Below are positions 37,113 to 54,279 of a stretch of DNA of 64,000 bases, in pieces; the stretch's first letter is position 1, and every line of letters starts with the position of its first letter. This DNA is from Massilia violaceinigra (GTDB lineage: Bacteria; Pseudomonadota; Gammaproteobacteria; Burkholderiales; Burkholderiaceae_D): assembly GCF_002752675.1 (NCBI RefSeq), contig NZ_CP024608.1, forward strand, positions 6,634,001 through 6,698,000. The letters are read 5' to 3'. Both the position numbers and the translations under genes were made by a program. The notes beneath the pieces were generated by a model. That model was not told the origin of the DNA, did no database searches, and saw only the letters and a program-made list of their open reading frames with translations.

Positions 37113-37730
37113 ATGGACGCCGCTACACTGACGCTGTTTGTTCCCGCCTGCTTTGCGCTGAATATGGCACCGGGCCCCAACAACCTGCTCTCGCTGAGCA
37201 ATGCGACGCGCTACGGTTTTCGCCAATCGTGCGCTGCGGGACTGGGCAGGCTGGTGGCATTCGCGGGGATGCTGGTCCTCGCTTCCGCCGGCCTGGCGGT
37301 GATCCTGCACACGTCCGAACTGCTGTTCTACGCGATCAAGATCGTGGGCGCGGCCTATCTGTTTTACCTGGCCGTACAACTGTGGCGCGCGCCAGCGGCG
37401 GCGCAGGATGCCGCGCAGTCGCCAGCCGCCGGCTTGTTCGGTCTTGCGCGCCAGGAGTTCCTGGTCGCTGCCGGCAACCCCAAGGCGATCCTGATCTTCA
37501 CCGCCTTCCTGCCGCAGTTCGTCAGCCCCGCCGAAGCATCCGCGCCGCAGTTTGCGGTGCTGGGTATCCTGTTCCTGCTGCTCGAACTGCTCGCCATCGC
37601 CGCCTACGCCTATATGGGCGTGCACCTGCGCCGCTGGTTTGCCCAGCCGCGCGGGCAGCGCATCTTCAACCGCAGTTGCGCGGTGCTGCTGGCCGGCGCG
37701 GGCACGGGCCTGCTGGCGGCGCGCCGCTAA
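37113..37730 (+). CDS. LysE/RhtB family transporter
   Basis: An inner-membrane exporter of amino acids or related metabolites, 205 residues with five to six hydrophobic helices. The family signature near the N-terminus (NMAPGPNNLLSLSNATRYGFRQS) is complete, and ALGNPKA-type NPKAILIFTAFLPQFV is present in the middle. AAGGA at 37101-37105 supports ATG 37113. Its 3' end overlaps the stop of the convergent M50-HlyD gene by four bases. The exported substrate cannot be predicted. Confidence 0.87.
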   Translation: MDAATLTLFVPACFALNMAPGPNNLLSLSNATRYGFRQSCAAGLGRLVAFAGMLVLASAGLAVILHTSELLFYAIKIVGAAYLFYLAVQLWRAPAAAQDAAQSPAAGLFGLARQEFLVAAGNPKAILIFTAFLPQFVSPAEASAPQFAVLGILFLLLELLAIAAYAYMGVHLRRWFAQPRGQRIFNRSCAVLLAGAGTGLLAARR

Positions 37731-39832
37731 AAACCAAGATAGGCGTTGATGGTGGCCAGCATGCCGGTCAGGCCGTCGAGTACCGGGTTGTGCGCCGCCG
37801 AGACGATCCTGACGCTGCCCGTCATGGTGCGGCCGGGCGCGGCCTGCGGTGCATCGATGTTGACGTCGACCGCGTAAAACGCGCCGTGCAGGCGTTCGCC
37901 GGCGGGCGTCTGCACGGCCGGCAGCGGCCCGTGCGAGAGCGATGTCAGGGCTCTTTCGGCGGCCGTGCTGCTGGCCGCCACGCTGACGGCGCGCACAGTT
38001 CCGCGCATGACCGTGAGCGGGTCCCCATCGGGAAAAAAGCGCACCATCGCGCCATTGCGCACCCGCCGGTAATCGACCTCGCGCACATACGCCACCGCCT
38101 GCAGAGTGGCACCATCGGCCGGCAGCAGGGTCGCGATCTTCTCGTTCATGCGCAGCCAGCGCCCTTCGACGATATGGGAAGGCAGGTCGCGCACGATGGC
38201 ATTGCGGCTGGCGCGCACGGTCAGGCGCGCGATCTCGGCCTGGACGCTGTCGCGTTCGACCATGCGCTCGGCCAGCGTTTGCTGCAGCACGTCGGACTGG
38301 TCGAACGTGCTGCTGTTGGTGGCCGCCTTGTCCAGGCGCGCCTGCGCTTCGCGGATGCGGGCTTCAAGCGTCACCAGCCGGTGGGCCAGCTCCGGCGAGG
38401 CCAGTTCGAGCACGATGTCGCCGGCCTTGACGCGCTGCCCATTGTGCACATGCAGCGCGCGCACCTGCGCACTCGCCGGCACGAACAGGTTCTGGCGCGC
38501 GGCCACCGTCAGGAACGCCGGCGCCTCGACCCGCCCCGACCAGGGCAGCACGGTCACCAGCAGCAGGCCGACCAGCGCCGCTCCGTACCAGCGGCGCCGC
38601 GCGCGCGTGATCTCGCTACGGCGCGGCCACATGGCGGCCAGTTCCGCCACCACCGGTTTGACGATGAACCAGCCGATTTCCACCGCCGCCAGCGGCACGC
38701 CGAGCAGCGGAGGAAAACTGATGAAGACAAAATAGGCGATCCCCAAGAACAGCACCAGCCGGTACAGGGCCGTGCCGAAACCGAAGCCAGCCAGTGCCCA
38801 CAGGGGCAGGCCGGCATGCGGCGCCGGGGGCTCGTTCAAGCCGATCCAGCGCCGCAGCACCATGCGCGCGGCGCGAAACGAGGCTTCCTGCAGGTTCGGA
38901 TAATCGAGCAGGTCCGACAGCAGGTAATAGCCGTCAAAGCGCATGAAGGGATTGAGGTTAATCACCAGCGACAGCACCCATGCGGTGCCGGCGATGATGA
39001 ACATCGCGCTTTGCAGCGGCCCTTCCGGCAGCAGCAGCCAGCCCCAGGTCGCCAGCACGGCAAATACCAGCTCGGTCGCAATGCCGGCCACGCTCACCTG
39101 CAGACGCGCGCGCCAGTCGGCCAGTTTCCAGATGTCGTTCACGTCGGTGTACAGCACGGGCCACAGCACCAGCAGCGCCACGCCGGTGCGCGTAACGCGC
39201 AGGCCCTGGCGCTTGGCCGCCACGCCATGGCCCACTTCATGGGTGGATTTGAGCAGGGCCAGCGACAGCGCGATCCACAGCGCCCCTTCGAGGCTGAAGG
39301 CGTAGCTGAAAGTAGCGCCGAAGCGGTCGGTCTGGGTCATCACCTGCCCCACGGCGATCAGCCCGAGCAGCGCGATGACGATCCAGAAGCCGGGCCGGAA
39401 GAGGAATTCCAGGCGCGGTGCCAGCCAGCCGTAGAAGCGGTCGGGATTGGCCAGCGGGACGCGCAGGAACAGGTAATTGTGCAGCAGCCAGCTGCCCCAC
39501 GGCGTGGGCGGCGGCGCGAGACTGGCCAGTGCCGCGGTGGCGCTGCGCTCGCGCCGCGCCAGCAACTGATGCTGGTGCAGGAACAGCAGCAGCGCCTCGA
39601 GGTTGGCCGCCTCCGGCGCGAGCGGCATCGCATCCTGCAAGGCCGCCAGCGCTGCGGCGCTGCTGCCAAGGTGCCAGTGCGCCAGCATCTGGAACTCGGC
39701 CTCGCCGATCTGGAAGAAGCGGTTGCGCAGCGGGTCGTACAGTCGCCACGATGGTGTGCCCAGGGGCGACGGCCCGGCCGCGAAAATCTCGATGTCGTCG
39801 CGCAGCGGCGGCAGGTGCTCGGGCAGCGCCAT
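37727..39832 (-). CDS. Site-2 protease (M50) fused to HlyD-type adaptor, PqqD-like N-terminus
   Basis: A 701-residue multi-pass membrane protein, last gene of the giant-protein operon. Residues 1-95 look like a PqqD-type winged helix (WRLYDPLRNRFFQIGEAEFQML), a fold that binds leader peptides in peptide-modification systems. A metalloprotease membrane domain follows, with zinc motif H198-EVG-H202 and the third ligand D300 in LNPFMRFDGYY, among about eight to ten hydrophobic helices. From about residue 410 a TM helix leads into an HlyD periplasmic part (lipoyl-like HVHNGQRVKAGDIVLEL, coiled coil, beta barrel). This YydH-like arrangement is associated with peptide export or processing. It is one base from the preceding gene, so co-translation is likely. 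Confidence 0.82.
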   Translation of the reverse strand: MALPEHLPPLRDDIEIFAAGPSPLGTPSWRLYDPLRNRFFQIGEAEFQMLAHWHLGSSAAALAALQDAMPLAPEAANLEALLLFLHQHQLLARRERSATAALASLAPPPTPWGSWLLHNYLFLRVPLANPDRFYGWLAPRLEFLFRPGFWIVIALLGLIAVGQVMTQTDRFGATFSYAFSLEGALWIALSLALLKSTHEVGHGVAAKRQGLRVTRTGVALLVLWPVLYTDVNDIWKLADWRARLQVSVAGIATELVFAVLATWGWLLLPEGPLQSAMFIIAGTAWVLSLVINLNPFMRFDGYYLLSDLLDYPNLQEASFRAARMVLRRWIGLNEPPAPHAGLPLWALAGFGFGTALYRLVLFLGIAYFVFISFPPLLGVPLAAVEIGWFIVKPVVAELAAMWPRRSEITRARRRWYGAALVGLLLVTVLPWSGRVEAPAFLTVAARQNLFVPASAQVRALHVHNGQRVKAGDIVLELASPELAHRLVTLEARIREAQARLDKAATNSSTFDQSDVLQQTLAERMVERDSVQAEIARLTVRASRNAIVRDLPSHIVEGRWLRMNEKIATLLPADGATLQAVAYVREVDYRRVRNGAMVRFFPDGDPLTVMRGTVRAVSVAASSTAAERALTSLSHGPLPAVQTPAGERLHGAFYAVDVNIDAPQAAPGRTMTGSVRIVSAAHNPVLDGLTGMLATINAYLGF

Positions 39833-39833
39833 C

Positions 39834-41186
39834 TCAAAGGCCGATCAGCCGGCGCAGGGCTGCCAGCGGCCGACGCAGCATGTGGTATGCCAGCGGCGCG
39901 CGTTCGCCGTACAGACGCACCGTTCCCTTGAGCCCGAGCTGGGGCGGCTGCCCCGTGAAGTGCCCGCGCAGCCGGTAGGCGCTGCCGCCTTCGGGGGCGG
40001 TTTCGGTTTCGTAGCTGCTGCCGTCGAGCGTGGCCGGCACCGATGCCAGCGGCGCGGTATGCAGCGACAGGCTCATTTGCGCGCCGGGCATGAGCGCGAT
40101 CGCATCGGCCGGCGGCAGCCAGGCTTGCAGGGCCACGCGGGCCGGGTCGGCCAGGGTCATGATATGTTCACCGGTGACGACCGGTTTCCCTACCAGGTCG
40201 AGCGGGTCCGAAAACACCACCACTCCGTCGGCCGGGGCTTTGACGGTCAGGCGCTGAACCAGTTCGCCCAGATACGCCAGCTCGGCCTGTTTTTCCTCGA
40301 TCCGCGCCGACAGCGCGGCCACGTCGGCACGCGAGCCGTCGTCGCTGAAACCTTTCTGGCTCGAGCGCAGCCAGTCGGCGCGTGCGATGTCGAGCGATTT
40401 GGTCGCCACCGCGAGGCGGTTGCGCACCCCGGTGTCGTCGAGGGCAAACAGCGCCTGGCCCGTCTTGACGGCCTGGTTGGGCCGCACCAGCACTGCGCGG
40501 ATCGGCGCGTCGGCCGGCGCAGCCAGCACCAGCGGCGCCAGCGCCACCACTTCGCCGCTGACCACCACCGACATGCGCAGGGGCAGCAATAGCAGCAGCG
40601 ACAGCGCCAGCACGCCGAAACGCAGGCGGCGGCTGCTCCAGCGCTTGCGCAGTCGCGCGCGCAAATTGCGGTGTTGGCGCCGCCAGCCCCACAAGGCGTG
40701 GCCATGAAAGATGGCCGCTTCCTGCAGCAGCGCCACCTCGTGCGGCTCGAACGGCGTGGCGCGCGCCAGGCACATGACACCCGGCCACGGCTCGCCCGGC
40801 GACGGCAGCGGAAGCCACAGCAAATGCGCAGGCAACCACTCGCTCCACTGGCTGGCCAGGCGCTCGGGAAAATCGGCTGGACCCAGTGCGGCCGCCTGCG
40901 TGCGCGCCTCCGGCAGCTGTTTAATGCGATGTGCGGCCAAGGCATTCATCCACAGCACGAACGGGCTGTCGCCTTCAATTCGCGCCAGGCCGGAAGCGTG
41001 GGTGACCCTGCCGCCGCCAACGTCCGATGGTTGCCACAGCAGCGCCAGATGGTAGGGCAGCAGCTGGAAGGTCTGGTTGACGATCGCGTACGCGGCCAGG
41101 TCTTCGCTGCGTGCCTGGCTGACGTCGCGCGCCAGCGACAGCAGGCCTGCCAGCAGGTCGGCGCGCGCGTCCACGCTAGCGTTCAT
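39834..41186 (-). CDS. GAF domain-HlyD fusion, membrane adaptor
   Basis: A 450-residue inner-membrane protein. Residues about 8-170 are cytoplasmic and GAF-like (SLARDVSQARSEDLAAYAIVNQTFQLLPYHLALLWQ), a TM helix lies at about 190-206, then the periplasmic HlyD pattern: lipoyl-like APADAPIRAVLVRPNQAVKTGQALFALDD, coiled coil, barrel (ADGVVVFSDPLDLVGKPV). It would couple a cytoplasmic signal or partner to the channel. The gene overlaps the previous one by 11 bases. A sensory domain fused to an export adaptor is not usual in ordinary type I systems. Confidence 0.8.
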   Translation of the reverse strand: MNASVDARADLLAGLLSLARDVSQARSEDLAAYAIVNQTFQLLPYHLALLWQPSDVGGGRVTHASGLARIEGDSPFVLWMNALAAHRIKQLPEARTQAAALGPADFPERLASQWSEWLPAHLLWLPLPSPGEPWPGVMCLARATPFEPHEVALLQEAAIFHGHALWGWRRQHRNLRARLRKRWSSRRLRFGVLALSLLLLLPLRMSVVVSGEVVALAPLVLAAPADAPIRAVLVRPNQAVKTGQALFALDDTGVRNRLAVATKSLDIARADWLRSSQKGFSDDGSRADVAALSARIEEKQAELAYLGELVQRLTVKAPADGVVVFSDPLDLVGKPVVTGEHIMTLADPARVALQAWLPPADAIALMPGAQMSLSLHTAPLASVPATLDGSSYETETAPEGGSAYRLRGHFTGQPPQLGLKGTVRLYGERAPLAYHMLRRPLAALRRLIGL

Positions 41187-41943
41187 TGAACTGCGCCGTC
41201 CCGCTCATGCCGGCGATGAGTTCCGGATGCTTGCCTTCGACCGCGCCGGTCAGTTCGACCGTGCGGCTCGCCGGATCGACGCGCCCATTGATCACACGCA
41301 CGCGCGCCGGGTAGCTCTTGCCGGTTTCGTCGACGACGATGGTGAACGCGGCGCCCTCCCCCAGCCAGCTGAGCCAGCGCGATGGCACGTGCAGCTGGAA
41401 GCGGAAGGCGCTGTTGTCGATCAGCTCCAGCAAGGGCTGGCCGGCGGCCACGGTTTCGTGGGCGCGCGCGCGCAGGCGCACCAGGCGCCCCGAAAACGGC
41501 GCGCTGATGCTGCAGTAACCCATTTGTGCCTTGACCACGTTCACCTGGGCCAGCGCCTTGTCGACCGCGCTGGCGGCCAGGCGTACATCGAGTTCGCTGG
41601 CCGAGCGGTAGCTTTTCAGTTCCTGCTTGCTGGCGTTGGTTTCGCGCGCGGAGGCCAGTTCCGATTCGCTCATTTTCAGCCGCGCGGCCTGTTCGGCGCA
41701 GTCGAAGCGGACCAGCGTGTCGCCCTTGCGAATGCGGCTGCCCAGCGCCGCCGGCAAGGCCACGATGCGCGCCGCGATCTGGCTGGAGATGACCGCTTCG
41801 TTTTCCGGCACCAGCAGCACCCGGATCGGATCGCCGCTTTTTGCCGCCGGCGCGGGCACAGGCGCCTTGGTCTGGGCCATGACCAGCGCCGGCAGAAGAA
41901 CAGCACATAGCGAGAAGGCGCATACCGTCGGCATGCGCGTCAT
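41176..41943 (-). CDS. HlyD/RND-type periplasmic adaptor protein
   Basis: A 255-residue exported adaptor (signal peptide ending LVMAQ). The split lipoyl domain surrounds a short coiled coil (about 90-135); key stretch GSRIRKGDTLVRFDC and, on the other side, CSISAPFSGRLVRLRARAHETVAAGQPLLEL. It has no TM anchor besides the signal, so would act as soluble periplasmic sleeve of the envelope channel. Overlaps tolC by four bases (ATGA) and the GAF-HlyD gene by eleven, so the three are surely translated as one unit. Confidence 0.85.
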   Translation of the reverse strand: MTRMPTVCAFSLCAVLLPALVMAQTKAPVPAPAAKSGDPIRVLLVPENEAVISSQIAARIVALPAALGSRIRKGDTLVRFDCAEQAARLKMSESELASARETNASKQELKSYRSASELDVRLAASAVDKALAQVNVVKAQMGYCSISAPFSGRLVRLRARAHETVAAGQPLLELIDNSAFRFQLHVPSRWLSWLGEGAAFTIVVDETGKSYPARVRVINGRVDPASRTVELTGAVEGKHPELIAGMSGTAQFNER

Positions 41944-43451
41944 GGTTTGGAGCTCTCCTGGGTCCGCAGAATCTGGTCGACGCTCCAGCGTTGCAGGCTC
42001 CGGTCCAGGCCCGCCGAGAAGTCGGCAAGGCTGGCCGCCTGCGATGGGATGGCCAGGTCGACGCCCATCGAATTGAGCATGCGCGCATGTGCGGCCTGCA
42101 TCGCGGCCTGCGAGTTGGCGCGCTGGAGGCTGGAAAGCACTGCACGCGCCTGCGCGCGAATCGCTTCGAGCTCGTTTTCGGCCGAACTCTTGACGGCGTT
42201 CGCCATCTGCGTGTTGATGCGCTGATCGATCCCGTCGAGACGGCGCGCCAGTTCGAATTCCTCGATGCTCTGGCGATAGCGCTCGGCGGCGATGCGCACC
42301 TGCGCCATCACGGCCATGGTCAGGGCCGCGCGGCGCGTGTCGTCGACCTTGACCTGGGCCTCGTGCTGGCGGCGCGCGGCCGGCAGCGAGAACGCCTTGA
42401 ACAGGTTGAACGAGACGCGCAGGCCCGATTCGTACCAGCTGTTGTGGTACAGATATTTGTTCGAGTCGTACTGGAAGCCCGTGTCGAACGACAGGCCGGG
42501 CAGGATGCTGAGCATCGTCTTGCGCATTTCGAGCGCGCTGTTACGCAGGCGGTAGTCTTCTTCACGCAGTTCGGCGCGATTGACCAGCGCATAGTCTTCT
42601 ATACGCGGCAACGCAGCCACGTCCAGCATCGGCGGCATGGCCGGCTCGGCGCCGCTGTCCTTGAGGCGGAACGCGATGCCCGGACGCAGATTCATCAGCG
42701 CCGCCAGTTCGATGCGCGCGCTTTCCAGTTCGTTGCGGCGGCTGCGCAACTGCTGCACGATTTCGAGCAGGCCGCGCTGGTAGATCAGCGCCTGCAGCGG
42801 CGGCATCAGGCGCTTCTCTTCGATCTTCTTCGAATCGGTCAGCGCCGTCTCGGCCACGCCATGCAGGCGGTCGATCTCCGCGGTCCAGCGCTGCGCCGCC
42901 ATCGCGCGCCAGTAGGCGGTGTAGACCTCCTGCGTGATGTTCTGCAGCGTCTTGCGGCGCCGTTCCTCGGCGATCAGCGCCTGGTTGGCGCTTTGCTGCG
43001 CGCGCACGTAGCTCAGGCCGAAATCGAGCGCGTTCCACGAAAAGGTCAGCTGGTCGGTGTTGCGGCTGCGTTCCTGGGCCACCGACACGTCGGTCTGGAC
43101 CACCCCGGTGCGCAAGTTCATCGCGGTCCCACCCGGATCGTTGTTGCGGGTGGTGTAGCCGGCCGCCGCGGTCAGGCGCGGCAGCATGTCGTAGAACCCC
43201 AGGTCGAGCTGACTTTTCAGCAGCGCGTTTTCCATCAGCTTAACGCGGTTCTCCAGGTTGTACTGGTAGGCGCGCGCCAGCACGTCGGCGAAACTGAGCT
43301 CGCCGCTGACCGGCTCCTGGTCGCGGAACATCGCCTGCTGGTCGCTGCTCACGCGCGCCTGTCGCTCGGCCTCGGTGGTCACCACCGGGGTGAGGGTACA
43401 ACCGGCCAGCATGGCGGCGGCGAGAGCAAGCGGCATCACTTTGATGAGCAT
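41940..43451 (-). CDS. TolC-family outer membrane factor, lipoprotein
   Basis: A 503-residue outer-membrane channel protein with lipobox (LAAAMLAGC) and two OEP repeats of long helices and beta strands. TolC likeness is evident from the coiled-coil helices rich in Ala, Glu, Arg and Gln, the LARAYQYNLENRV motif and the C-terminal LNSMGVDL. It should form the exit duct for the giant protein encoded 51 bases upstream. I start at 43451, where GGGAAC precedes the ATG and the lipobox is well placed; the frame opens earlier at 43481 with no better site. Confidence 0.88.
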   Translation of the reverse strand: MLIKVMPLALAAAMLAGCTLTPVVTTEAERQARVSSDQQAMFRDQEPVSGELSFADVLARAYQYNLENRVKLMENALLKSQLDLGFYDMLPRLTAAAGYTTRNNDPGGTAMNLRTGVVQTDVSVAQERSRNTDQLTFSWNALDFGLSYVRAQQSANQALIAEERRRKTLQNITQEVYTAYWRAMAAQRWTAEIDRLHGVAETALTDSKKIEEKRLMPPLQALIYQRGLLEIVQQLRSRRNELESARIELAALMNLRPGIAFRLKDSGAEPAMPPMLDVAALPRIEDYALVNRAELREEDYRLRNSALEMRKTMLSILPGLSFDTGFQYDSNKYLYHNSWYESGLRVSFNLFKAFSLPAARRQHEAQVKVDDTRRAALTMAVMAQVRIAAERYRQSIEEFELARRLDGIDQRINTQMANAVKSSAENELEAIRAQARAVLSSLQRANSQAAMQAAHARMLNSMGVDLAIPSQAASLADFSAGLDRSLQRWSVDQILRTQESSKP

Positions 43452-43502
43452 GGAAGGTTCCCTGTGGTGTGGTTGGTTCATGTCGGTCGGGCTTCTCCGG
43501 AG

Positions 43503-46500
43503 TTAGCGCTGGCGCGCCGCGAGCGCCAGCAATTGGTCGCGTCCCTGCGTTTGCCGGGCGTGCGCATTGGCGATCTGTGCCACCAGACCGGTCTTGCCGG
43601 GGCGCGCAGCCTCGCCCGCATCGGCGCTGCCGCCAGGCCGTGGCGGTGCCCCCTCCAGCGCTGCCTCCGGGCCCCGATACTCCTTGGCGCCCTGCTGGAC
43701 CTGGCCCGCCTCCGACTTGATGGTAAAGCGGATCGTGCGCTTGGCTTTGACGTCGCTGCCATCGGCATCGCGCAGCTTGAGGCCACGGATCACTTTCTCG
43801 TATTCGGTCACCGAGGCGCCGCCGCTCAGCACCATGGTGCCGGTGGCGGCGTCGAATACCGACGTGATGTTGGGCGAGGAGACGGTCAGGGCCAGCTGGT
43901 CGCGCTGCGGCACCAGGCCATCGTCGATGCGCACCACGGCCGAAACCAGCCGCACCGTATCCTTGTCGGCGGCGCTGCCGTCGGCCTGGCGCACATTGAT
44001 CGAGAAGCCGGCGCCGATGTCGCTCGGGTTGAACGATTCCCCCACGCGCGAGGTACCGGTCGCGGTGTTGCCGGTCTCGATTTCGAATACGCTGACGCGT
44101 ACCGGCTCCTGCGTCAGCAGGCCGGTGGCGCGCAAGCCGCTCGCCAGCACCGGGGAAGGCACGCCGGCCGCCACCAGCGGCATGCCCGGCGCCAGCACGG
44201 CGCTGTCGAGCGGCGCCGGGCCTGGCGCCTGCGCAGGCGCCGCATCCGGCGCCACGGGCGCGTCGACGATGACGGGAGCGACAGGCGCAGTGACGCCGGT
44301 CGAATTTGCATCGGCGCCCAACAGCGGTTCAGCGGCCGGCAGGGTATCGGGCGTAAAGACGATGCCGGTATCGGTCAGCGTGACGGCGCGCGTGCTGGCG
44401 CCGCCCGCGTTACCGGCGGCGTCGGTCAGGCGCGTGACGATGCTCCAGTTGCCGCCATGTGCGCCCGTGTCAGGCGCGTTCCAGCCAGTCCCGCCGACCG
44501 TTGCCGGCACCCAGCTGGCGCCGCCATCAAAGCTCACTTCCAGCAGCTCGCCGGCAGCCAGCGGTGCCGAAACGGTGCCGCTGACGGTGCGCCCCGCTCC
44601 GCCATCGCTGGTAATAAAGTCGCCGGCGGCGTCGGTGTCACGCTCCATCGTCTCGATGGTGACGGTTTGCGCGGGCGCGCTGGTATCGATGCGCAGCGCG
44701 TAGCCGGCTGACGGTACGCCGGCGCGCCCGGTCGCGCTGTTTTCCACGCGTGCCGTGTAGCTGACGCTGGCGCCATCGGCCAAGGCGCTGTCGGCGTAGC
44801 TCCAGGCGGTACCGGTGACGCTGGCCGTGCCGATGCGTACGCCATTGCGGTAGACCGCAAGCACTTCATTCGGGCCGAGTGCCGCGGACAACGCCCCGCT
44901 CACGCCTGGCGCACTATCGTTGGTTGCGCCGCCGTTGGCGACGGTGCCGGTCACGGGACCGACATCGTCAACGACGGTCGTGATGGTCACGCTTTGCGCC
45001 GGCGCACCCAGGTCGATCGTGATGCTGTACGGGGCCGAGGCGGTGCTGTTGATACCTGTGACGCTGTTTTCCACACGCGCCGTGTAGGCGTACGTGGCGC
45101 CGTCCGCCAGGCCGCTGTCGGCATAAGTCCATGCCGCGCCGCTGACGCTGGCGTTGCCGATGCGCGTGCCGTCGCGGTAGACAGCCACCACCTCGTTCGC
45201 ACCCGGCGCCAGGGCCAGGGCCAGCGTGCCGGCCAGCAGCGGCGTGGTGTCGTTGCTGATGCCGCCGCTGGCCACCGTGCCAGTCGAAGGCGCAGCGTCA
45301 TCGGTGATGCTGCTGATGCCAACCGCCTGCACCGGGTCGGCCTGCAGCACCACCGCGCGCGCCGCGGCGCCGCCAGTATTGCCGGCCGCGTCGACGATGC
45401 GCGTCGTGATAGTCCAGTTGGCGCTGTGGGCCGCCGCATCAAGGGCAGACCAGCCGGTGCCGCTGACGCTGGCCACGACCCAGCTTGCGCCATCGTCGAA
45501 GCTGGCCTGCAGCACTTCGCCGGTGCCGAGCACCGAAGACAATGTGCCCGTCACCACGCGTCCCGCGCCGCCGTCGCCGGTGACAAAGTCGCCGGCAATG
45601 CCACTGTCGCGTGTCATCGCCACGATGACGACGCCCTGCGCAGGCGCGCTGGCGTCGATGCTCACCGCGTATGCGCCGGAAGCGCTGCCTGCCAGCGTTG
45701 TAACGAGGTTTTCCACCTGGGCGGTGTAGCTGTAGCTGGCGCCGTCGAGCAGGCCGCCATCGGCGAAGGTCCAGGCGCCACCCAGCACGCTGGCGTTACC
45801 GATGCGGGTGCCGTTGCGGTACACCGCCAGCACCTCGTTCGCACCCAGCGGCGCGGATATGGTGCCGCTCACCCCAGGCGCGGTATCGTTGGTGACGCCG
45901 CCGCTCGCGACCGTGCCGGTCAGCGCCGCGACATCGTCGGCGATGGCGGTAACGGCCACTGTCTGCACGGGCGCGCCGGACAGAATGACATCCCGGCTGA
46001 CGGCCGGGCCGACATTGCCGGCGCTGTCGACGATGCGCGCCGAGATGGTCCAGCCGGCGGCATGCGCAGCGCTGTCGGTGCTCGCCCAGGCGCTGCCGGT
46101 CACGGTTGCGAGGCTCCAGGTGACGCCGCCATCATGACTGATTTCGAGCACATCGCCGGTTCCCAGCGGCGCCGTGAGCGTGCCGCTGACCACGCGGCCG
46201 GCGGCGCCATCGCTGGTGATGAAGTCGCCCGCAATGCCGCTGTCGCGCGTCATGGCGGCGATGGCCACGCCCTGCGCCGGCGCGGCGGTATCGACCACGA
46301 TCGTGTAGGCGTTCGATGGTGTGCCGGTCGATGGCGTAGCGGTATTGTCGATGCGCGCGGTGTAGCTGTACGTGGCGCCGTTCACCAGGGCGCTGTCGGT
46401 GAAGCTCCAGGTGGCGCCGCTAACGCTTGCATTGCCGATCTTGACCCCGTCGCGCAGCACGGACACGATCTCGTTCGCGCCAAGCGGCGCGGACAGCGTG

Positions 46501-49500
46501 CCCGAAATGGCCGGCGCGTTGTCGTTGGTGACGCCGCCGCTGGCGATGATGCCGGTGACGCGCGCCACGTCATCCGTCACCGCCGTGATGGCCACGCTGG
46601 TGCCGGCCGCGCCTTGCAGCACCACGTTCTGCGTGGCAGCGCCACCGGTATTGCCGGCAGCATCGACGATGCGGGTGGTGATGGTCCAGTTGCCGGTGTG
46701 GACGCCGGCGTCGAGCGCCGTCCAGCCGGTGCCGTCGACGCTGGCCACGACCCAGTTCGCACCGCCGTCGAAGCTCAGCTCCAGCACCTCGCCGTTCGCG
46801 AGCGTACTCCCCAGGGTGCCGGTCACGGTGCGCCCGGCGGCGCCGTCGGTGGTGATGAAGTCGCCCGGCGTGCCGCTGTCGCGCGTCATCGAGACAATCG
46901 TGACGTTTTGCGCGGGGGCGCCGGTATCGAGCACGATGGCGTATGCGCCCGATGCCGTGCCAGCCGTGCCGGCCAGCGAGTTCTCCACCTGCGCGGTGTA
47001 ACTGTGGGTAGCGTCGGCCAGGCCGCTGTCGGCGTAGGTCCAGCCGGTGCCGCTGACGGTGGCGTCGCCAAGCCGGACGCCGTTGCGGTACACGCCCACG
47101 ACCTCGTTGGCACCCAATCCGGCCGAGATGGTGCCGGCCAGCGCCGGCGCGGCGTCGTTGGTGGCGCCGCCGTTGGCCACCGTGCCGATGACCGGCGCCA
47201 CGTCGTCGGCAATGCTGGTGATAATCACCGTCTGCGCCGGCACGTTGGCATTGGTGCTGACGTTGACGGTGGCCGTGGCGCTGGCGGCAGCATTGCCGGC
47301 ATCGTCGCGCGCGCTGAATGCGAACGTGCGCGCGCCGAGTGTCGAGGCAGCGCCGGCGTCGTTCCGATAGCTGATGTCGCGCGCCACAGCCTGGGCTTCG
47401 GCCGCACTCATGGCGGCGAAATCGTAGCGCTGGATGGAAAAGACGCCGGCGGCGTAAGAAAGATTCACGCGCACGCCGCCGACCATGATGTCGGTGCGGG
47501 TAGTGACGCTGTCGCTGCCGTCGGCGGCAACCACGGTGCCGCCGAACACCAGCTTCTCGCTGGCGCCGTCGGCTCCCGCCAGGCCGCCCACGGCCAGCGT
47601 GAGGCGCAGCAGCCGGTTGCTCGCATCGACCAGGGTCAGAGGATCGGCGCCATCGTCCAGGCTGACCGCCCCCCCGTTGACGCTGGCGACGCTGCGATCA
47701 AGCGTGGCGCCGTTCGAGGGCGCCAGGTCGATCACGGGCGCGGCCAGATCCTGCACCGTGAGCTCGTTGCTGCTGCTGTCGGCCAGGATGTTGCCGGCGA
47801 CGTCGCGAATGGTCGCCACCACCTGGTACACGCCGTCGAAGCCGGCGCCGGCACTGGCGGGCGTGAGGGCGTCGGCCTCGGGAATGGCCAGCGTCCAAGT
47901 GGCGCCGGTGACGCTCAGGCGGCCATCACCGGCGAGGTAGGTCTTGCCGTTGACGGTGACGGCGAGCGTTTCGCCGGCGCCCAGGGTGACGCTGCCGGAA
48001 ATTTGCGGCGTGCTGTCGGATGTGACCAGCGGATGGACCACGCTCACCGGGCCATTCGGCGCAGCGGTGTCAACGATCACCGTTTGCGTAGCGACCGCGC
48101 CGAGGCCAACCTGCGCGCTCAGGGCGTAGCTGCCGTCGGCGAGCGTGCTGCCCTGGAAGTCGTAGCTCCAGTTGCCGGCACCATCGGCGGTGACGGTCAG
48201 GCCGTTGGCGAACACATTGCCGCCGGCGCCGGGACCGGTCATCACCAGCTTGACCAGCGCGCCCGGTGCCGCGCTGCCGCGGAACAGCAGCGTGTTATCG
48301 GAGGTGATGAAGTCGCCCGCGATGGCGCTGTCGGTGCTGATGCTGTCGATGGTGGCGTTGGCGCCGGCGATGCTCTTGTCGTGCAGGACGGTGGCCACCG
48401 CGACGTACGGGGTGCCGCCCGCATCAAGGTAGGTGGCGGTGACGGTGATGGTGCCGTTGGCCAGCCCGCGCAGGTTGGCCGGCGCCAGCTGCCACGCGTT
48501 GGCACTGACGGTGGCGGTGTCGGCCAGCGTGGTAACGCCGTCGGTGATGGTGATGGACAACGTGGCGCCGTCCGGCACGCCGCTGGTGGACCCGCGCAGG
48601 ATCACGCTGGTGTCTTCGCTGGCGACCAGGATGCCGTTCGGCGTATTGCTGCCCGTGTAATCGAGTTCGGTGGTGATGGCAATGGCCGGCGCGGCGATGT
48701 CGATCACCATCGCCTTGCTGCTGCTGGCGCTGTTGCCGGCCAGGTCGGTGCCGCTGGCGGTAATCGTCAGCTGCGCGCCGTTGGAAAACGCTACCGGCCC
48801 GCCGCTGCCCGCCGGGACCGCATCACCGGTATCGATGCTCCAGGTGCCGTCAGGCGCCACCGTGGTGGTGTAGCTCAGGGTACCGCCGCCGCTGATGGCC
48901 ACGTCGACCGCGATCGCGCGGCCGACTTCGATGTCGGTGGTGCCGCGCAAGACCGGGCTGGTATCGGCCGTCTTGTAGTTGGTGGTGATGCCGATATCGG
49001 CGCGCGTGTCGATCACGATCGCGCGGCTGACGGTGCTGGTGACGCCGGAAGCGTCGGTGACGGCGGCGCGCAGGGTGTAGCTGCCGTCGCCGAGGGCGGC
49101 ATCGAGGCTGCGGTCGACCGACCACGCTCCGCCGGCAGCGCTGGCGAGCTGGCGGAAGACTTCGGCGCCGCTGGCGTCTTCCAGCGTCACGCTCACCATG
49201 GCGCCGGTTGTCGCGCTGCCGTTGAACACCAGCGTGGTGTCGCTGGTGAGGAAGTCGGCGCCGGCGCCGCTGTCGGCGCTGATGCCGCCGATGGCCAGCG
49301 CCTGGGCATCGATGACGATGGTCTGGGTGCTGAGCGCTCCGTTGCCGTTGACGGTGGTGGCGGCGGTCAGCGTGTAGCTGCCGTTGGCCAGCGAGGTGGC
49401 GCTGAAGTCGAAGGTCCACACGCCGGTGACCGGGTCCGCCACTGGCGTGCCGATCACGGTGCCGTTCAGGCGCAGGGTGACGGTCGCACCCAGTGCGGCG

Positions 49501-52500
49501 CTGCCGCTGAAGGTCAGGTTGCGCTGGTTGGTGATGAAGTCGGCCGGCGTGCCGCTGTCCGGGCTGATCGCCATGATCGACGTGGCCGCCACGCTGGCGG
49601 CGTTGCCGGCCGGGTCGCTGGCGGTGGCGATGATGATGCTGTCGGCCGGAGTCGGGATGGCCGACTGCACGCGCCAGCTGCCGTCGGCCTGCACCGTGGT
49701 GCTGTAGGTCGCTTCGACGGCGCCGGTGCGGTCGCTGTTGATGGTAACGGTAACGGTGGCGCCCGCGGCCAGGCCGGCGCTGGTGCCGGTGATCAGGGGC
49801 AGATTATTGGCCACGCTGGCCGCCGCCGTGATGTTGAGCACCGGCGCGGTCTTGTCATGCACGGTCGTGGTGCTGGTGCTGGCGCTGTCGCTGGTGGCGG
49901 GGTTGCGGTCGGGGTCGACCACGGCCGCCACCGTCAGCGTGCCGTCGTTCAGGGCCGACAGGTTCATGCCGGTCACGCTCCAGCTGCCGTCATCGGCCAC
50001 GGTGGCGGTGGCGGTCGGGTCGACGGTGGCGTTGTCGCCATCGGAGACGGTGACCTTGACCTCCCCGCCGGCGGCATTGACGGCGCGCCCGCGGATGGTG
50101 ACGCTGTCGTCCTCGGTGGCGTTGACCAGGCCATTGGCATCGACCACCTCGGTGATGCTGACCGACGGCGTGCCGGTCACCAGCAGCAGCGTCGGCTGGG
50201 TCACGTCCGAGACGGTGTAGAAGGTGCCGGCGCCGCTGCCGACTGTATCGGTCAGCTGGGCCTTCACGATCAGGGGACCGTTGTTGAAGCTCTTGACCAC
50301 CGCCTCGGTCAGCACGGCGCTCCAGGTACCGTTGATGTTACGGGTCAGGGTGACGCCGGTGTCGGCATTGGTTTTGGTGTGCACGCCGTCCGTAATCGAC
50401 AGCGTCAACGTGCCGCTGGCCGTGGTCTTGGTATTGGCGAAGGTGCCGGAGATGGTGACGCCGCCGAGAATGTCGCTGCTGGTGATGGTGGTGTCGCCGC
50501 TGCCGGTGCCGGTGATGCCGCTGATGGTGACCACCGGCGGATTCACGTTCGGGGTCTGGTAGGCCACCGTCTGTTCCGCGTTGGCGACCTTGTTGCCGGC
50601 CAGGTCGGTGGCGCTGGACGAGGCGGTAATCTTCACGGTGCCGTTGCTGCTCAGGCTTAGCGTTGTCGAAAAATCCCCGTTGGCGTCGACCGTCGCGCTC
50701 AAGCCGGTTTGCGGATAGTCGGTAACGAGCGAGATGACCGAGCCGGCCGGCAGGTTGGCGTTGCCGGTGACGACCGGGGAGCTGGTCTTGATGATCGACG
50801 GCGTGGTCAGCACGATCTGCGGTGCGATCTTGTCGTGGATGATGGCCTTTTGCGCGCTGGTGCCCAGCACCGTCGCCGTCACGGTCAGGCCGGCGCTGTT
50901 CAGGGCCGACAGATCGAATGCGTTGCCGTCGTTGGCCGTGCCGGCGCCGGACGACAGCAGCGTGAACGTACCGTTGGCGGCCACCACGGCGGTCTTGGTG
51001 TAGTCGAGCGTGCCGTCCGAGATGGTGATGACCACCGAGCTGCCCTGCGCCACGTTGGTCGTGGTACCGCTGACGATGACGGAATCGTCCTCGGCCATGT
51101 TGAAGATGCCGTCACCGGTGATGATATTGGCGAGGCTGCCGCCGTTGGCAATGGTCGTCTCGATGCCGGTCAGGTTGTTGGCGGCGGTTCCGATCGTGAT
51201 GCCCGGGATGACCACGCTCAGGTTTTGCGTGTTGCTGGCGCTCTGCCCGCTCGCGTCGAGCGGGGTACTGGCCACCACCACCGCGCTGCCCGACAGGCCC
51301 GCCACCGGCATCGCGCCGGCTACTGGCTGCAACGGCCCGCTGGTATCCAGGCTCCAGTTGCCGCTGGCATCGGTCTGCACGGAATAGGTAATCCGGTCGG
51401 TCGTGCCATTGCCAGTCGGGTCGATGGATACCGTGATGAAGCCGCTCAGCACCGACGAGGTGCCGGCAAAGGTGGGTTTGGGCACCGTAACGGTGACGTT
51501 GTCGTCGTTGACGCCATCGTTGTCGACGATATCGATGCTCGGTCCGCCGATGATCACCAACTCGCCGCTGGTGGTGTCGGCCACGGTGGCGCCGCCGCGC
51601 GTGACCTCGGCCACGATCTGGTAAGTCTGGTCGGGCGCGAGCGCGCCCACGGTGCCGCCGCCGTCCTTGATGGCGCTGGCCAGGTCGACGCTCCAGCTGT
51701 TGCCGGCCGGCACCAGGGTGTACGTGGCCAGCAAGCTGCCGGGATTGCCCGCGTTGTTTGTGTACAGCTTGACAGTGAGCGTGTCGCCGGCCACGTTGGT
51801 CCAGCTGCCGCCGATGGTCGGGCTGGTCGAGCCGGTGCTCTGGCTGGTCACGGTGGGCCGGTTCAGCCCGACCGCGCTGCCCACATTGCCGGCGGCGTCG
51901 ATGGCCGAGGCCGTGATTTTCGTGGTCGGCGTCAGGCCGCCGGCGGGCAGGCTGCCCGAGAGCGGCGTGGCAGTGGCGGTATTCAGGGTCCAGGCGCCGC
52001 CAGCCACCACCACCTGGTACAGCACATTGGCGGTAGCGGGGTTGTTGTCCGGGTCGAGCGTCAAGGTCACGACTGCGCCGTCGGGCAGGTCGGAGGTGCC
52101 GCTCAGGGTCGGCGTGCCGGCCGTGGTGGTGGCGAGCGGGTTGATGGCAACCAGCGGCGCGGTTTTGTCGAGCACGACGGTGGCGGTATCGGTCGCGGTA
52201 CTGCCGCTTTCGGTGACCGAGGCGGCCACGCTCAGGGTACCTTCGGCCAGGCCGGACAGGTTGACGTTCGATACGCTCCAGGTATTGAGTCCGTTGACGC
52301 CGGCGACGACGGTGGCGCTGGCATTGGTGCTGCCGGCGCCGCTGTCGGTAATGACCAGGCTGACGGTGGCACCGGCCGCAGCCTTGGTGCCGCCCGACAG
52401 GGTGACTGCCGCAGCCTCCGTGGCGCCCGACGCGCCGGCCAGTTTGCCGTCGCCGACCGGTTCGTTAATGGTGATCGACAGCCCGTCCGGCACCGGATTG

Positions 52501-53966
52501 GCAGCCGACATGGGCGACGTGAACGCGCCCAGGGCGGCGAAGGTGGCGTTCTTGTCGTAGGCCGCGCCGACCCCGTTCAGGTCACCGTTGATGGGGCCGG
52601 TCTGGGTTTGCGTGAAGCTGATGTACTGCACCACCGTGTCTTTCCCGTAGTTGGCAATGCCGCCGGCGCCACGCGGGCCGGCCACGCCGCTGCGGTCGGT
52701 GGCCGACGGTTTGGCCAGCACGATGGCGATATCGGCGATCGGCACGCGCCAGTTGATGAACACGTCGGTGCCGTTGGCGCCGGTCAGGTTGCTGTTGCTG
52801 CTGCCGGGCGCGGGCACGGCGGCCGGGGCCCAGTCCGAATCTGTCGCGGCCGACACCGCCACCACGGAATAGTTGGATGGCGAGAAGGCGTACACGCCAT
52901 TGTTCGGCAGCCAGCCGGTCGGCAGGGCCGAGGTGGAGGTGGTATTCGGCGAGACGTTGGCGCCGGTGCCGGGGTCGAGCAGGCGCACGGCCTGGCCGTT
53001 GTTGCGTCCATCAACCGAGAAGAACAGGTCGACCCGCCCGTCCCGGTTGGCATCCATGCCGACGATGGCCACGCCCGAAAAATTGGTGACGCTGGTCGGG
53101 TTGTCGATGCGCATGCGAAACACCAGCGTGTCGTCGCCGGTGGCCGCCGTGCCCTTGTCGTCGTAGGCGGTGTAGAGCGAGCCGTGGGTGGCGTCGCCGA
53201 TGATGTCGGTGTCGGCCGCGCCGGCCTGGGTATCGTTGAAAGGATCGCGTACCGGGCCTTTCATGATCGTGGTCCAGCCGGTGGAGCCCGACAGGTTGAT
53301 CGTGGCAAGGCGGTTGGCATAGCTGGCGCCGTCGCCCAGGCCGGGGCTGAACAGCGCCGGGGCGGCGATCGCACCGGTGCGGTATTCGAGCGTCCAGTCG
53401 GCGCCGGCGGTGCCGCCGCTGTCGTTGCTGGAGGCGGCCACGTCGGCGCCGGTGAGCGCGGCGAGGCGCTCGGCCAGGGCCACGCCGGCCTGGCCGGCGG
53501 CGACATCGCACCCGTAGACGAGGATGTCGGCGTCGGCGGTCAAGGCGTGCGACCACGCGGCCACCTGGGCGGCGCGCGCGTCGAGGGTGGCACTGCTGAG
53601 CGCCTGGCCGGGCAGCGCGATAAACGCATCCGAGCCGTGCGAGATGAGGTGGATGGCGGCCACGTCGTGGCGGGCGGCGAGGATGTCGCTGATCTGGTCG
53701 ATGCCGTCGCGCCCGGCCGCCAGCTCGATCACTTCGGCGGTTGCGCCGAAGGCCTGGCGGATCTGCGCCGGGTCGGCGACTTCGGGCGAAATGAAGACGA
53801 TCTGGACCGGTCCGGCTGAGGCGGGCGCGTCGGCTGGCGGTGGCGCTTGCGGCGCTGCCGTGGCCGCATCCCAGGATATCAGCGCTGCCCCGTCGAACAA
53901 CATGCGCGGTTCGAGTGCGGACAATTCAACATGGCGCTTCAGGCCGGGGGTGCGGTTCGTCGACAT
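43503..53966 (-). CDS. Giant Ig-repeat protein with LEPR motif and DUF4347 domain, 3487 aa
   Basis: A very large, low-Cys surface or secreted protein, first gene of a five-gene operon. There is no Sec signal; instead a basic N-terminus holds LEPRMLFDGAA (residues 18-28), a motif that marks a large group of giant proteins in Proteobacteria. Residues about 53-200 are DUF4347, with H106, HG at 110-111 (LISHG) and C153 (YGCDVA), reminiscent of caspase-fold peptidases. A beta-rich domain follows, then Ig-like repeats of about 100 residues to residue 3200, including nine alternating modules (2247-3201). The C-terminus is charged and helical. No RTX nonapeptides were seen. Starting at 53966 places the motif near the N-terminus; the frame runs to 54128 with no extra features. 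Adhesin or biofilm function is likely by analogy. Confidence 0.9.
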   Translation of the reverse strand: MSTNRTPGLKRHVELSALEPRMLFDGAALISWDAATAAPQAPPPADAPASAGPVQIVFISPEVADPAQIRQAFGATAEVIELAAGRDGIDQISDILAARHDVAAIHLISHGSDAFIALPGQALSSATLDARAAQVAAWSHALTADADILVYGCDVAAGQAGVALAERLAALTGADVAASSNDSGGTAGADWTLEYRTGAIAAPALFSPGLGDGASYANRLATINLSGSTGWTTIMKGPVRDPFNDTQAGAADTDIIGDATHGSLYTAYDDKGTAATGDDTLVFRMRIDNPTSVTNFSGVAIVGMDANRDGRVDLFFSVDGRNNGQAVRLLDPGTGANVSPNTTSTSALPTGWLPNNGVYAFSPSNYSVVAVSAATDSDWAPAAVPAPGSSNSNLTGANGTDVFINWRVPIADIAIVLAKPSATDRSGVAGPRGAGGIANYGKDTVVQYISFTQTQTGPINGDLNGVGAAYDKNATFAALGAFTSPMSAANPVPDGLSITINEPVGDGKLAGASGATEAAAVTLSGGTKAAAGATVSLVITDSGAGSTNASATVVAGVNGLNTWSVSNVNLSGLAEGTLSVAASVTESGSTATDTATVVLDKTAPLVAINPLATTTAGTPTLSGTSDLPDGAVVTLTLDPDNNPATANVLYQVVVAGGAWTLNTATATPLSGSLPAGGLTPTTKITASAIDAAGNVGSAVGLNRPTVTSQSTGSTSPTIGGSWTNVAGDTLTVKLYTNNAGNPGSLLATYTLVPAGNSWSVDLASAIKDGGGTVGALAPDQTYQIVAEVTRGGATVADTTSGELVIIGGPSIDIVDNDGVNDDNVTVTVPKPTFAGTSSVLSGFITVSIDPTGNGTTDRITYSVQTDASGNWSLDTSGPLQPVAGAMPVAGLSGSAVVVASTPLDASGQSASNTQNLSVVIPGITIGTAANNLTGIETTIANGGSLANIITGDGIFNMAEDDSVIVSGTTTNVAQGSSVVITISDGTLDYTKTAVVAANGTFTLLSSGAGTANDGNAFDLSALNSAGLTVTATVLGTSAQKAIIHDKIAPQIVLTTPSIIKTSSPVVTGNANLPAGSVISLVTDYPQTGLSATVDANGDFSTTLSLSSNGTVKITASSSATDLAGNKVANAEQTVAYQTPNVNPPVVTISGITGTGSGDTTITSSDILGGVTISGTFANTKTTASGTLTLSITDGVHTKTNADTGVTLTRNINGTWSAVLTEAVVKSFNNGPLIVKAQLTDTVGSGAGTFYTVSDVTQPTLLLVTGTPSVSITEVVDANGLVNATEDDSVTIRGRAVNAAGGEVKVTVSDGDNATVDPTATATVADDGSWSVTGMNLSALNDGTLTVAAVVDPDRNPATSDSASTSTTTVHDKTAPVLNITAAASVANNLPLITGTSAGLAAGATVTVTINSDRTGAVEATYSTTVQADGSWRVQSAIPTPADSIIIATASDPAGNAASVAATSIMAISPDSGTPADFITNQRNLTFSGSAALGATVTLRLNGTVIGTPVADPVTGVWTFDFSATSLANGSYTLTAATTVNGNGALSTQTIVIDAQALAIGGISADSGAGADFLTSDTTLVFNGSATTGAMVSVTLEDASGAEVFRQLASAAGGAWSVDRSLDAALGDGSYTLRAAVTDASGVTSTVSRAIVIDTRADIGITTNYKTADTSPVLRGTTDIEVGRAIAVDVAISGGGTLSYTTTVAPDGTWSIDTGDAVPAGSGGPVAFSNGAQLTITASGTDLAGNSASSSKAMVIDIAAPAIAITTELDYTGSNTPNGILVASEDTSVILRGSTSGVPDGATLSITITDGVTTLADTATVSANAWQLAPANLRGLANGTITVTATYLDAGGTPYVAVATVLHDKSIAGANATIDSISTDSAIAGDFITSDNTLLFRGSAAPGALVKLVMTGPGAGGNVFANGLTVTADGAGNWSYDFQGSTLADGSYALSAQVGLGAVATQTVIVDTAAPNGPVSVVHPLVTSDSTPQISGSVTLGAGETLAVTVNGKTYLAGDGRLSVTGATWTLAIPEADALTPASAGAGFDGVYQVVATIRDVAGNILADSSSNELTVQDLAAPVIDLAPSNGATLDRSVASVNGGAVSLDDGADPLTLVDASNRLLRLTLAVGGLAGADGASEKLVFGGTVVAADGSDSVTTRTDIMVGGVRVNLSYAAGVFSIQRYDFAAMSAAEAQAVARDISYRNDAGAASTLGARTFAFSARDDAGNAAASATATVNVSTNANVPAQTVIITSIADDVAPVIGTVANGGATNDAAPALAGTISAGLGANEVVGVYRNGVRLGDATVSGTGWTYADSGLADATHSYTAQVENSLAGTAGTASGAYAIVLDTGAPAQNVTIVSMTRDSGTPGDFITTDGAAGRTVTGTLGSTLANGEVLELSFDGGANWVVASVDGTGWTALDAGVHTGNWTITTRIVDAAGNTGGAATQNVVLQGAAGTSVAITAVTDDVARVTGIIASGGVTNDNAPAISGTLSAPLGANEIVSVLRDGVKIGNASVSGATWSFTDSALVNGATYSYTARIDNTATPSTGTPSNAYTIVVDTAAPAQGVAIAAMTRDSGIAGDFITSDGAAGRVVSGTLTAPLGTGDVLEISHDGGVTWSLATVTGSAWASTDSAAHAAGWTISARIVDSAGNVGPAVSRDVILSGAPVQTVAVTAIADDVAALTGTVASGGVTNDTAPGVSGTISAPLGANEVLAVYRNGTRIGNASVLGGAWTFADGGLLDGASYSYTAQVENLVTTLAGSASGAYAVSIDASAPAQGVVIVAMTRDSGIAGDFVTGDGGAGRVVTGTLSSVLGTGEVLQASFDDGASWVVASVSGTGWSALDAAAHSANWTITTRIVDAAGNTGGAAARAVVLQADPVQAVGISSITDDAAPSTGTVASGGISNDTTPLLAGTLALALAPGANEVVAVYRDGTRIGNASVSGAAWTYADSGLADGATYAYTARVENSVTGINSTASAPYSITIDLGAPAQSVTITTVVDDVGPVTGTVANGGATNDSAPGVSGALSAALGPNEVLAVYRNGVRIGTASVTGTAWSYADSALADGASVSYTARVENSATGRAGVPSAGYALRIDTSAPAQTVTIETMERDTDAAGDFITSDGGAGRTVSGTVSAPLAAGELLEVSFDGGASWVPATVGGTGWNAPDTGAHGGNWSIVTRLTDAAGNAGGASTRAVTLTDTGIVFTPDTLPAAEPLLGADANSTGVTAPVAPVIVDAPVAPDAAPAQAPGPAPLDSAVLAPGMPLVAAGVPSPVLASGLRATGLLTQEPVRVSVFEIETGNTATGTSRVGESFNPSDIGAGFSINVRQADGSAADKDTVRLVSAVVRIDDGLVPQRDQLALTVSSPNITSVFDAATGTMVLSGGASVTEYEKVIRGLKLRDADGSDVKAKRTIRFTIKSEAGQVQQGAKEYRGPEAALEGAPPRPGGSADAGEAARPGKTGLVAQIANAHARQTQGRDQLLALAARQR
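44364..47228 (-). repeat. Nine alternating Ig-like repeat units in the giant protein gene
   Basis: Two related unit types of about 105 codons alternate in the order B-A-B-A-B-A-B-B-A (reading in gene direction). Type A carries 'MTRDSGxxGDFIT' and 'RIVDAAGNTGGA'; type B carries 'SGGxTNDxAP' and 'ANEVxxVYRxGxRIGNASV'. The pattern points to expansion by duplication of an A-B pair followed by loss or gain of one unit. Confidence 0.85.
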
Positions 53967-54279
53967 CGGAGATTCCGTTTCAAAGGGACCGGTCACACGC
54001 GCGGATGGCGGACTGGTCAAAAATCTGGACACGGTTTGTTGGGTGTCAACGGAAACAAATATAGCGTAGATTTTGTGGGATACAGGGGCGCGATTCGACG
54101 TTTTTGGCAATACTGTCGCGTACGCCATACGGAATTGCCAGTTTTATATCGTGGCGCTGCGGTGAGGAATGCGATAGCGGTCGGAGGGCGAACGACGTGA
54201 CAAGGCGCCCCGCCGCGCGGCTGGCGGCAGAGGCGAAGGCGGAGAGTCAGCGGCGCCGGACGCCGCCGCAGCGGGCTGC
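53967..54279. other. Upstream region of the giant-protein operon
   Basis: This 313-base interval before the giant gene's start has no gene of its own. On the minus strand it carries TTGACA at 54049-54044 with 17 bases to AGATTT, a weak but correctly spaced sigma70-like promoter, and a further AT-rich TATATT at 54063-54058. It is richer in A/T than the surroundings, fitting a promoter. No dyad operator was recognised. Confidence 0.4.

Follow-up and report, generated by a model that had tools for sequence, protein, structure and literature searches.

Five genes in a row on the minus strand of contig NZ_CP024608.1 of Massilia violaceinigra would, on a reading of their content to which we give an even chance, form a machine dedicated to exporting and processing one giant adhesin-like protein. 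They lie in a window of 64,000 nucleotides (contig positions 6,634,001 to 6,698,000), which is the whole stretch of DNA that was analysed and to which the positions below refer. That this route does without an ABC transporter appears well supported by gene content and was partly known before. The branch that lacks a SecA gene, both motifs of its giant proteins, and the interpretation of its protease as a leader peptidase are new, as far as the literature searched shows; no paper on them was found in the open-access collection searched. The genes and their features are as follows.

37727..39832, minus strand: M50-HlyD protein (P0001), with Peptidase_M50 and HlyD_3 domains (Pfam)
38930..38959, minus strand: second active-site motif NLNPFMRFDG, M50-HlyD residues 292-301
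39227..39241, minus strand: HExxH zinc motif HEVGH, M50-HlyD residues 198-202
39557..39811, minus strand: putative RRE (PqqD-like) region from the model, M50-HlyD residues 8-92
39834..41186, minus strand: GAF-HlyD protein, with HlyD_3 and a weak GAF match (Pfam)
41176..41943, minus strand: periplasmic adaptor of RND_mfp/HlyD type, 255 aa (Pfam HlyD_3)
41940..43481, minus strand: TolC-family outer membrane factor (Pfam OEP)
43503..53966, minus strand: gene of the giant putative substrate (LEPR protein), 3487 aa counted from the ATG before the LEPR motif
43572..43586, minus strand: C-terminal LVAQI, the window's deviant of the tail motif, outside the strict pattern
53343..53801, minus strand: DUF4347 domain directly behind the LEPR motif, with conserved His and Cys
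53887..53915 (contig 6687887-6687915), minus strand: N-terminal LEPRMLFDGA motif, proposed leader signal

The genes are closely packed. The giant gene and the TolC gene are 21 bases apart (51 with an alternative TolC start at 43451, where the protein looks lipoprotein-like by eye), the TolC and adaptor genes overlap by 4 bases and the adaptor and GAF-HlyD genes by 11, and a gap of 1 separates GAF-HlyD from M50-HlyD; an alternative upstream ATG at 54128 would lengthen the giant to 3541 aa. Coordinates and spacing agree with a sequence-only reading of the same DNA, which had described a five-gene operon on one strand with overlaps or gaps of 51 bases or less. Domain matches likewise agree with the neighbours it named (LysE, CMD and DUF3606 genes), and Pfam with its family labels, the GAF match of GAF-HlyD falling below the cut-off (16.9 bits; cut-off 22.4) with its fold backed by the model. 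GAF-HlyD has this GAF-fold domain at residues 1-175 and a MacA/HlyD-like adaptor part at about residues 202-431; MacA itself is a periplasmic adaptor without the M50 or GAF fusion seen here. The separate adaptor (P0003) scored 109 bits against TIGR01730 (RND_mfp; cut-off 94.9). No sigma-70-like promoter site was found, where shuffles gave 1.5, and terminator-like sites numbered 12 as compared to 9.0 (sd 3.5) in shuffled sequence. Elsewhere in the window, positions 33191-35853 hold two successive genes, the first RPE65-like and the next with His_kinase and HATPase domains.

The module recurs widely, which makes the operon more than a chance arrangement. The branch to which the window belongs, without a SecA gene in the locus, is denoted type A. 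Of 398 genomes sampled across the phylum, 92 had a P0001 relative, three of the 92 (G122, G290, G336) holding only an M50 protein without the HlyD part; in nearly all 398 genomes two candidates were scored, so that each genome has at least the number of copies counted and some sister modules may have escaped notice. A profile search of genome contigs with M50-HlyD gave at least 588 relatives among the 596 pattern matches listed, and 80 were kept. Together with 8 plasmid loci and 60 from the phylum sample (fetched from 111 type-A matches outside the window's own genome, E up to 3e-88, long contigs favoured), they make up 148 type-A loci. GAF-HlyD immediately preceded M50-HlyD, both on one strand, in 8/8 plasmid, 69/80 genome-contig, and 55/60 phylum-sample loci; GAF-HlyD, adaptor, and TolC were all found within the stretch in 7/8, 39/57, and 35/54 loci, counting those with at least 6.5 kb upstream. 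The complete order of giant, TolC, adaptor, GAF-HlyD, and M50-HlyD was observed on plasmids of Azospirillum, Variovorax, Kosakonia, and E. coli. Variants included a Magnetospirillum locus whose first gene encodes merely about 490 aa, four loci with the giant downstream of M50-HlyD (L044, L045, L054, L090), and one in which the opposite strand encodes the adaptors and TolC (L116). The three-gene part was matched in 24 of 5426 complete E. coli genomes, in 22 of them over at least 80%, and 21 of the 25 matching places were on plasmids. Relatives outside the Proteobacteria, among the matches listed, included those from Nitrospira, Desulfonema, and Desulfuromonadales; viral contigs yielded no P0001 relative. 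At one locus (L036, NZ_CP081687.1) the module adjoins an IS1 element and a malT gene, and at another (L040) type II secretion genes including gspE.

A short N-terminal pattern links the giant and the machine across genomes. The window's LEPRMLFDGA site is the sole match of the motif pattern in its own genome. Over the 398 genomes the DNA pattern for LE[PQ]RxxFD[GA] matched 57, comprising 55 of the 92 with a P0001 relative and 2 of the 306 without one (G389 and G189, the latter 57% complete), a genome-level association with a Fisher p of 6e-40; the reversed pattern, as a control, matched 4 of the same genomes. The exact pattern was missing in 37 of the 92 positive genomes, and at least two matches in positive genomes look chance-like by letters and place (that of G167 and one of the three in G058). 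Motif counts at the protein level took giants of at least 800 aa only: LE[PQ]Rxx[FLMY]D[GA] stood within the first 150 residues of 42 of the 48 giants with a complete N-terminus, as compared to 2 of 638 other ORFs and no occurrence in the giants' other 203,238 residues. Four of the six exceptions look like internal starts, two of these (L038, L151) having the motif in a short ORF directly upstream; L147 has LEARVMFDGA, and L162 is probably no true giant. Three genomes (G041, G026, G117) hold four pattern matches each; several giants may share one machine there, or several modules may exist. LEPR-XLL proteins (NF012209) resemble the window's giant in being large and in carrying a short N-terminal LEPR motif. 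The giant scored 13.6 bits (E 0.04) against that model, below its cut-off of 17, and the model, which may be too short for the threshold, had no match in the genome at E 0.001. By eye no hydrophobic signal was seen at the giant's N-terminus, and no Sec signal is evident there. Ig-like repeats (Big_13 / Ca2+-tandem) follow, with Big_13 in 9 stretches, in addition to DUF4347 (Pfam).

Of 73 giants, 57 carried a second motif, [FL][STAMRN]xQ[LVIMF] ([FL]SxQ[LV]-like), within their last 60 residues, and once tails were clustered it was present in 44 of 59 clusters; the controls were 85/3650 internal windows (2.3%), 160/3650 shuffled tails (4.4%), and 32/638 other ORFs (5.0%). Giants missing the pattern include the near misses FGDQL, FGAQL, FSAEL, and LVAQI. 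Common ancestry may explain part of this conservation. Two giants of the sister branch (L200, L207) share a different tail, W..DF..HLG.D....RNPNAGLR, so that the C-terminal signal may differ between the branches. An RTX tail was considered and rejected: the window's giant contains no GGxGxD motif, the 94 listed candidates (21 of them cut C-terminally) have 0 or 1 in their last 600 residues, and the same holds for the 73 giants whose C-terminus is complete and whose length is 800 aa or more.

No ABC transporter with a nucleotide-binding domain was found among the window's five genes, and in the 7.5 Mb genome the nearest of 80 type I ABC profile matches lay 37.7 kb from the operon, which upholds the earlier claim that no ABC ATPase is in or next to it. 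Among the 148 type-A relatives, an ABC-like gene lay anywhere in the stretch in 14 (plasmid 1/8, genome-contig 9/80, phylum-sample 4/60), at varying distance and on either strand. ABC transporters thus have no fixed place at these loci and do not always accompany them, and a hidden nearby ABC gene was rejected on the same grounds. Some of the 14 cases are themselves doubtful: the gene at L056 encodes an AAA_15 protein, that at L105 owes its count as an inside gene to a downstream MacAB-like set that has a TolC of its own, and L173 drops out of the filtered map. At L167 two ABC genes lie 0.1-1.1 kb off on the other strand. At L093 and L156 a HlyD-like and ABC pair lies 3-5 kb from the module, by chance or as a second exporter.

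The M50 protein had been taken for the membrane component of the system, a site-2 protease fused to an adaptor. Pfam confirms the fusion, and the role of the protein appears wider, since it also has an RRE-like domain and its active site is conserved. In the model, residues 8-92 form three strands and then three helices, and ten helices span residues 131 to 428; a MacA/HlyD-like adaptor part occupies about residues 432-681. Every one of the 147 type-A proteins with 600 aa or more, the window's included, kept HExxH. By hhalign, the type-A RRE region matched the sister-branch domain at 97.9%, and the N-termini of three M50-only proteins at a probability of 21.6%. The sister-branch domain exceeded the Pfam PqqD cut-off in 3 of 5 proteins; the type-A regions matched PqqD in 1 of 17 pieces (E 0.024) and in 0 of 30 whole proteins at E 0.01. 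Pfam PqqD had no match in the window's own genome, and the RRE region compared with PDB sequences gave nothing credible and matched no RRE. The VIA-align list for the model consisted of adaptor and biotinyl-domain folds, so the RRE and M50 parts were barely probed by that comparison. According to the available passages of its description, the daptide leader peptidase MpaP is an RRE-M50 fusion that cuts the leader of its precursor (PMC10036551). M50-HlyD likewise unites a putative RRE domain and an M50 intramembrane peptidase in one protein, the HExxH being seen directly and the RRE by way of the model and the sister domain, and it matched the daptide protease model NF041824 over residues 37-385 (E 2.6e-44), with 151.9 bits against a cut-off of 300. 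MpaP substrates, in those passages, are short peptides with modifying enzymes, whereas here the candidate substrate has 3487 aa and a HlyD part is joined to the protease. The RRE-like domain and the conserved active site suggest that the protein recognises a leader and cuts it. In the tree the window's M50-HlyD forms a branch by itself (best identity 39%), and it does not have the RESGF with which the family consensus ends.

M50-HlyD proteins of type A and of a sister branch (25-32% identity) fall in one tree; in a quick tree all 80 type-A proteins lay on one side of a branch with support 96, the midpoint root serving for drawing only. The typical sister order is giant, GAF-HlyD, M50-HlyD, SecA-like, adaptor. 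A SecA-like ORF was observed in 14 of 20 sister stretches, and 3 of the six others hold M50-only proteins; the three sister SecA-like proteins scanned had SecA_DEAD, P-loop_SecA, and preprotein cross-linking domains. No SecA-like ORF was found in the window or in the 148 type-A stretches, and the window's own genome had one SecA_DEAD match. Counted with Pfam SecA_DEAD at E 1e-15, which misses a divergent SecA-like ORF such as that of G010 (L204), a single SecA was present in 27/29 type-A genomes without a sister match, 5/19 with a sister match, and 12/12 without a P0001 relative. Extra SecA of type-A genomes was rejected as an explanation, the extra copies of G304 and G006 sitting in sister modules; all eight further extra SecA genes inspected lay beside a sister M50-HlyD. 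At L205 and L208 the sister module has no SecA-like gene in the stretch and the genome has one SecA match; these would be losses or intermediate forms. All five sister N-termini seen (L208, L233, L237, L238, L241) carried [LIM]E[PE]R..[FL]SA, LEPRLLLSA-like where type-A giants have LEPRxxFDGA. Ten upstream sister stretches were fetched, the N-terminus being absent from six; for the four sister motifs on separate stretches, the reading frame continues into the giant. The sequence-only reading had named no source of energy. A lead now comes from the sister branch, where a SecA-like ATPase is encoded next to M50-HlyD, which suggests that a machine of this kind needs ATP.

An ABC-free M50/GAF/HlyD module had already been predicted. 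In the available passages, Kamneva et al. 2015 (PMC4452313) describe a secondary SecA_DEAD / type I secretion-like module from which ABC genes are absent, propose SecA_DEAD as its ATPase and M50 as its membrane pore, and state that experiments are still required. Their module resembles the operon in its M50-HlyD, GAF-HlyD, HlyD/biotin_lipoyl protein, occasional OEP, and lack of ABC; the window's branch differs in having no SecA_DEAD gene in the locus, and those passages mention neither a substrate nor a LEPR motif, a C-terminal motif, or an RRE domain. The earlier idea of a distinct secretion route with a shared pathway is thus favoured by the lack of ABC in the module and by the substrate-machine link across genomes, but such a module with SecA has been known since 2015, and export is what we infer. 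The most far-reaching reading, which we hold at well short of even confidence, is a widespread export route in which an RRE-guided, adaptor-fused intramembrane protease replaces the ABC transporter, reading and cutting a RiPP-like leader on giant proteins and passing the chain to TolC, with type A having no ATPase of its own (housekeeping SecA or no nucleotide) and the sister branch a dedicated SecA-like motor. In our main reading, the one given an even chance, the RRE-like domain of M50-HlyD would bind the giant's LEPRMLFDGA leader, and its intramembrane protease part would cut that leader, as MpaP does with its precursor. Judging by their families, the three adaptors and TolC would then form the conduit across the periplasm and outer membrane, with the C-terminal motif as a second sorting or docking signal. 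Least secure is the driving force. With no ABC ATPase, a borrowed housekeeping SecA would be the most likely driver, a guess by analogy with the sister branch, and folding of the repeats outside may assist; against such borrowing, genomes with and without the module alike have one SecA.

Two-step type I secretion by LapA/LapBCE/LapG brings together a giant repeat adhesin, a TolC-type channel, a HlyD-type adaptor, and a proteolytic step. The operon shares all of these, but has no ABC and no RTX motif, its protease is intramembrane and adaptor-fused, and neither a LapG/LapD pair nor an N-terminal retention module was found among the window's five genes. C-terminal RTX repeats are common, not universal, in type I substrates; of a canonical type I system, the operon has the HlyD-type adaptor and TolC, and lacks the ABC transporter and those repeats. 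We consider it rather unlikely that a type I ABC exporter encoded elsewhere moves the giant, with the operon as outer conduit and trimming or releasing protease in the manner of LapG and LapA. Such exporters are frequent enough: LssB/LapB-type ABC was over the cut-off in 27 of the 50 positive genomes searched (out of 92, own included), and in the 23 lacking LssB over the cut-off, where HlyB and PrtD were sought, HlyB was over it in 5 and PrtD in 8, both in two; the window's own genome has a PrtD-type ABC over the cut-off and three HlyB-like matches below. At L043 the opposite strand carries a type I ABC + HlyD set at a distance of 4.8 kb from the module. According to the passages available, a Vibrio giant with a LEPR-XLL domain carries RTX sequence at its C-terminus (PMC10868602), which means that type I systems may serve LEPR proteins as well; the available text of two papers names the LEPR-XLL domain, and for DDxP giants that of a further paper regards type I secretion as likely, some of the genes being without linked type I genes. 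Against this exporter elsewhere stand eight of the 50 positives (G082, G023, G213, G298, G004, G061, G064, G088) with no match to the LssB, HlyB, and PrtD families at E 1e-150, 1e-150, and 1e-120; type I ABC of these families seems not to be needed genome-wide. One of the eight, G082, is a single contig of 4.1 Mb with a large ORF before TolC (L132) and a LEPR pattern match upstream. The scarcity of GGxGxD in the 73 giants also speaks against it, as does a module that supplies three adaptor-type proteins and its own TolC.

A stand-alone translocase without ATP, driven by proton motive force or an outside folding ratchet and with the M50 membrane part as channel, is in our judgement improbable. 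It would suit a module without an ABC gene, type-A stretches without a SecA-like ORF, and the ten helices of the M50-HlyD model, but the sister branch's SecA-like motor suggests an ATP need and site-2 proteases are not known to serve as channels for proteins. In the passages available, Kamneva et al. 2015 (PMC4452313) did propose an M50 pore. That the adaptors and TolC belong to a small-molecule efflux pump with an RND or MFS partner, the giant being a mere passenger, we regard as very improbable: the adaptor's score above the RND_mfp cut-off favours it, but no RND or MFS pump is among the window's five genes and LEPR giants stay with the machine even where the order is shuffled, as in the four loci with a downstream giant.

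If the protease does replace the ABC transporter as a reader of leaders, giant surface proteins of many Proteobacteria would exit by neither classical type I nor any other numbered route, and RiPP-style leader recognition would reach proteins of thousands of residues. Since one branch has a SecA-like motor and the other does not, removing genes could show what drives export, and the motifs allow a search for substrates and machines in any genome.

The domain directly behind the leader may add to the processing. Among 44 LEPR giants with 800 aa or more, 35 have DUF4347; the His of SHG is conserved in 43 of 46 domains and the Cys of GC in 45 of 46, and the sole match of DUF4347 in the PDB was 9qpe_G, itself named DUF4347 (E 0.0083). 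The domain, which we take to resemble a caspase-like cysteine peptidase, is possibly such an enzyme and thus a second protease at the giant's N-terminus.
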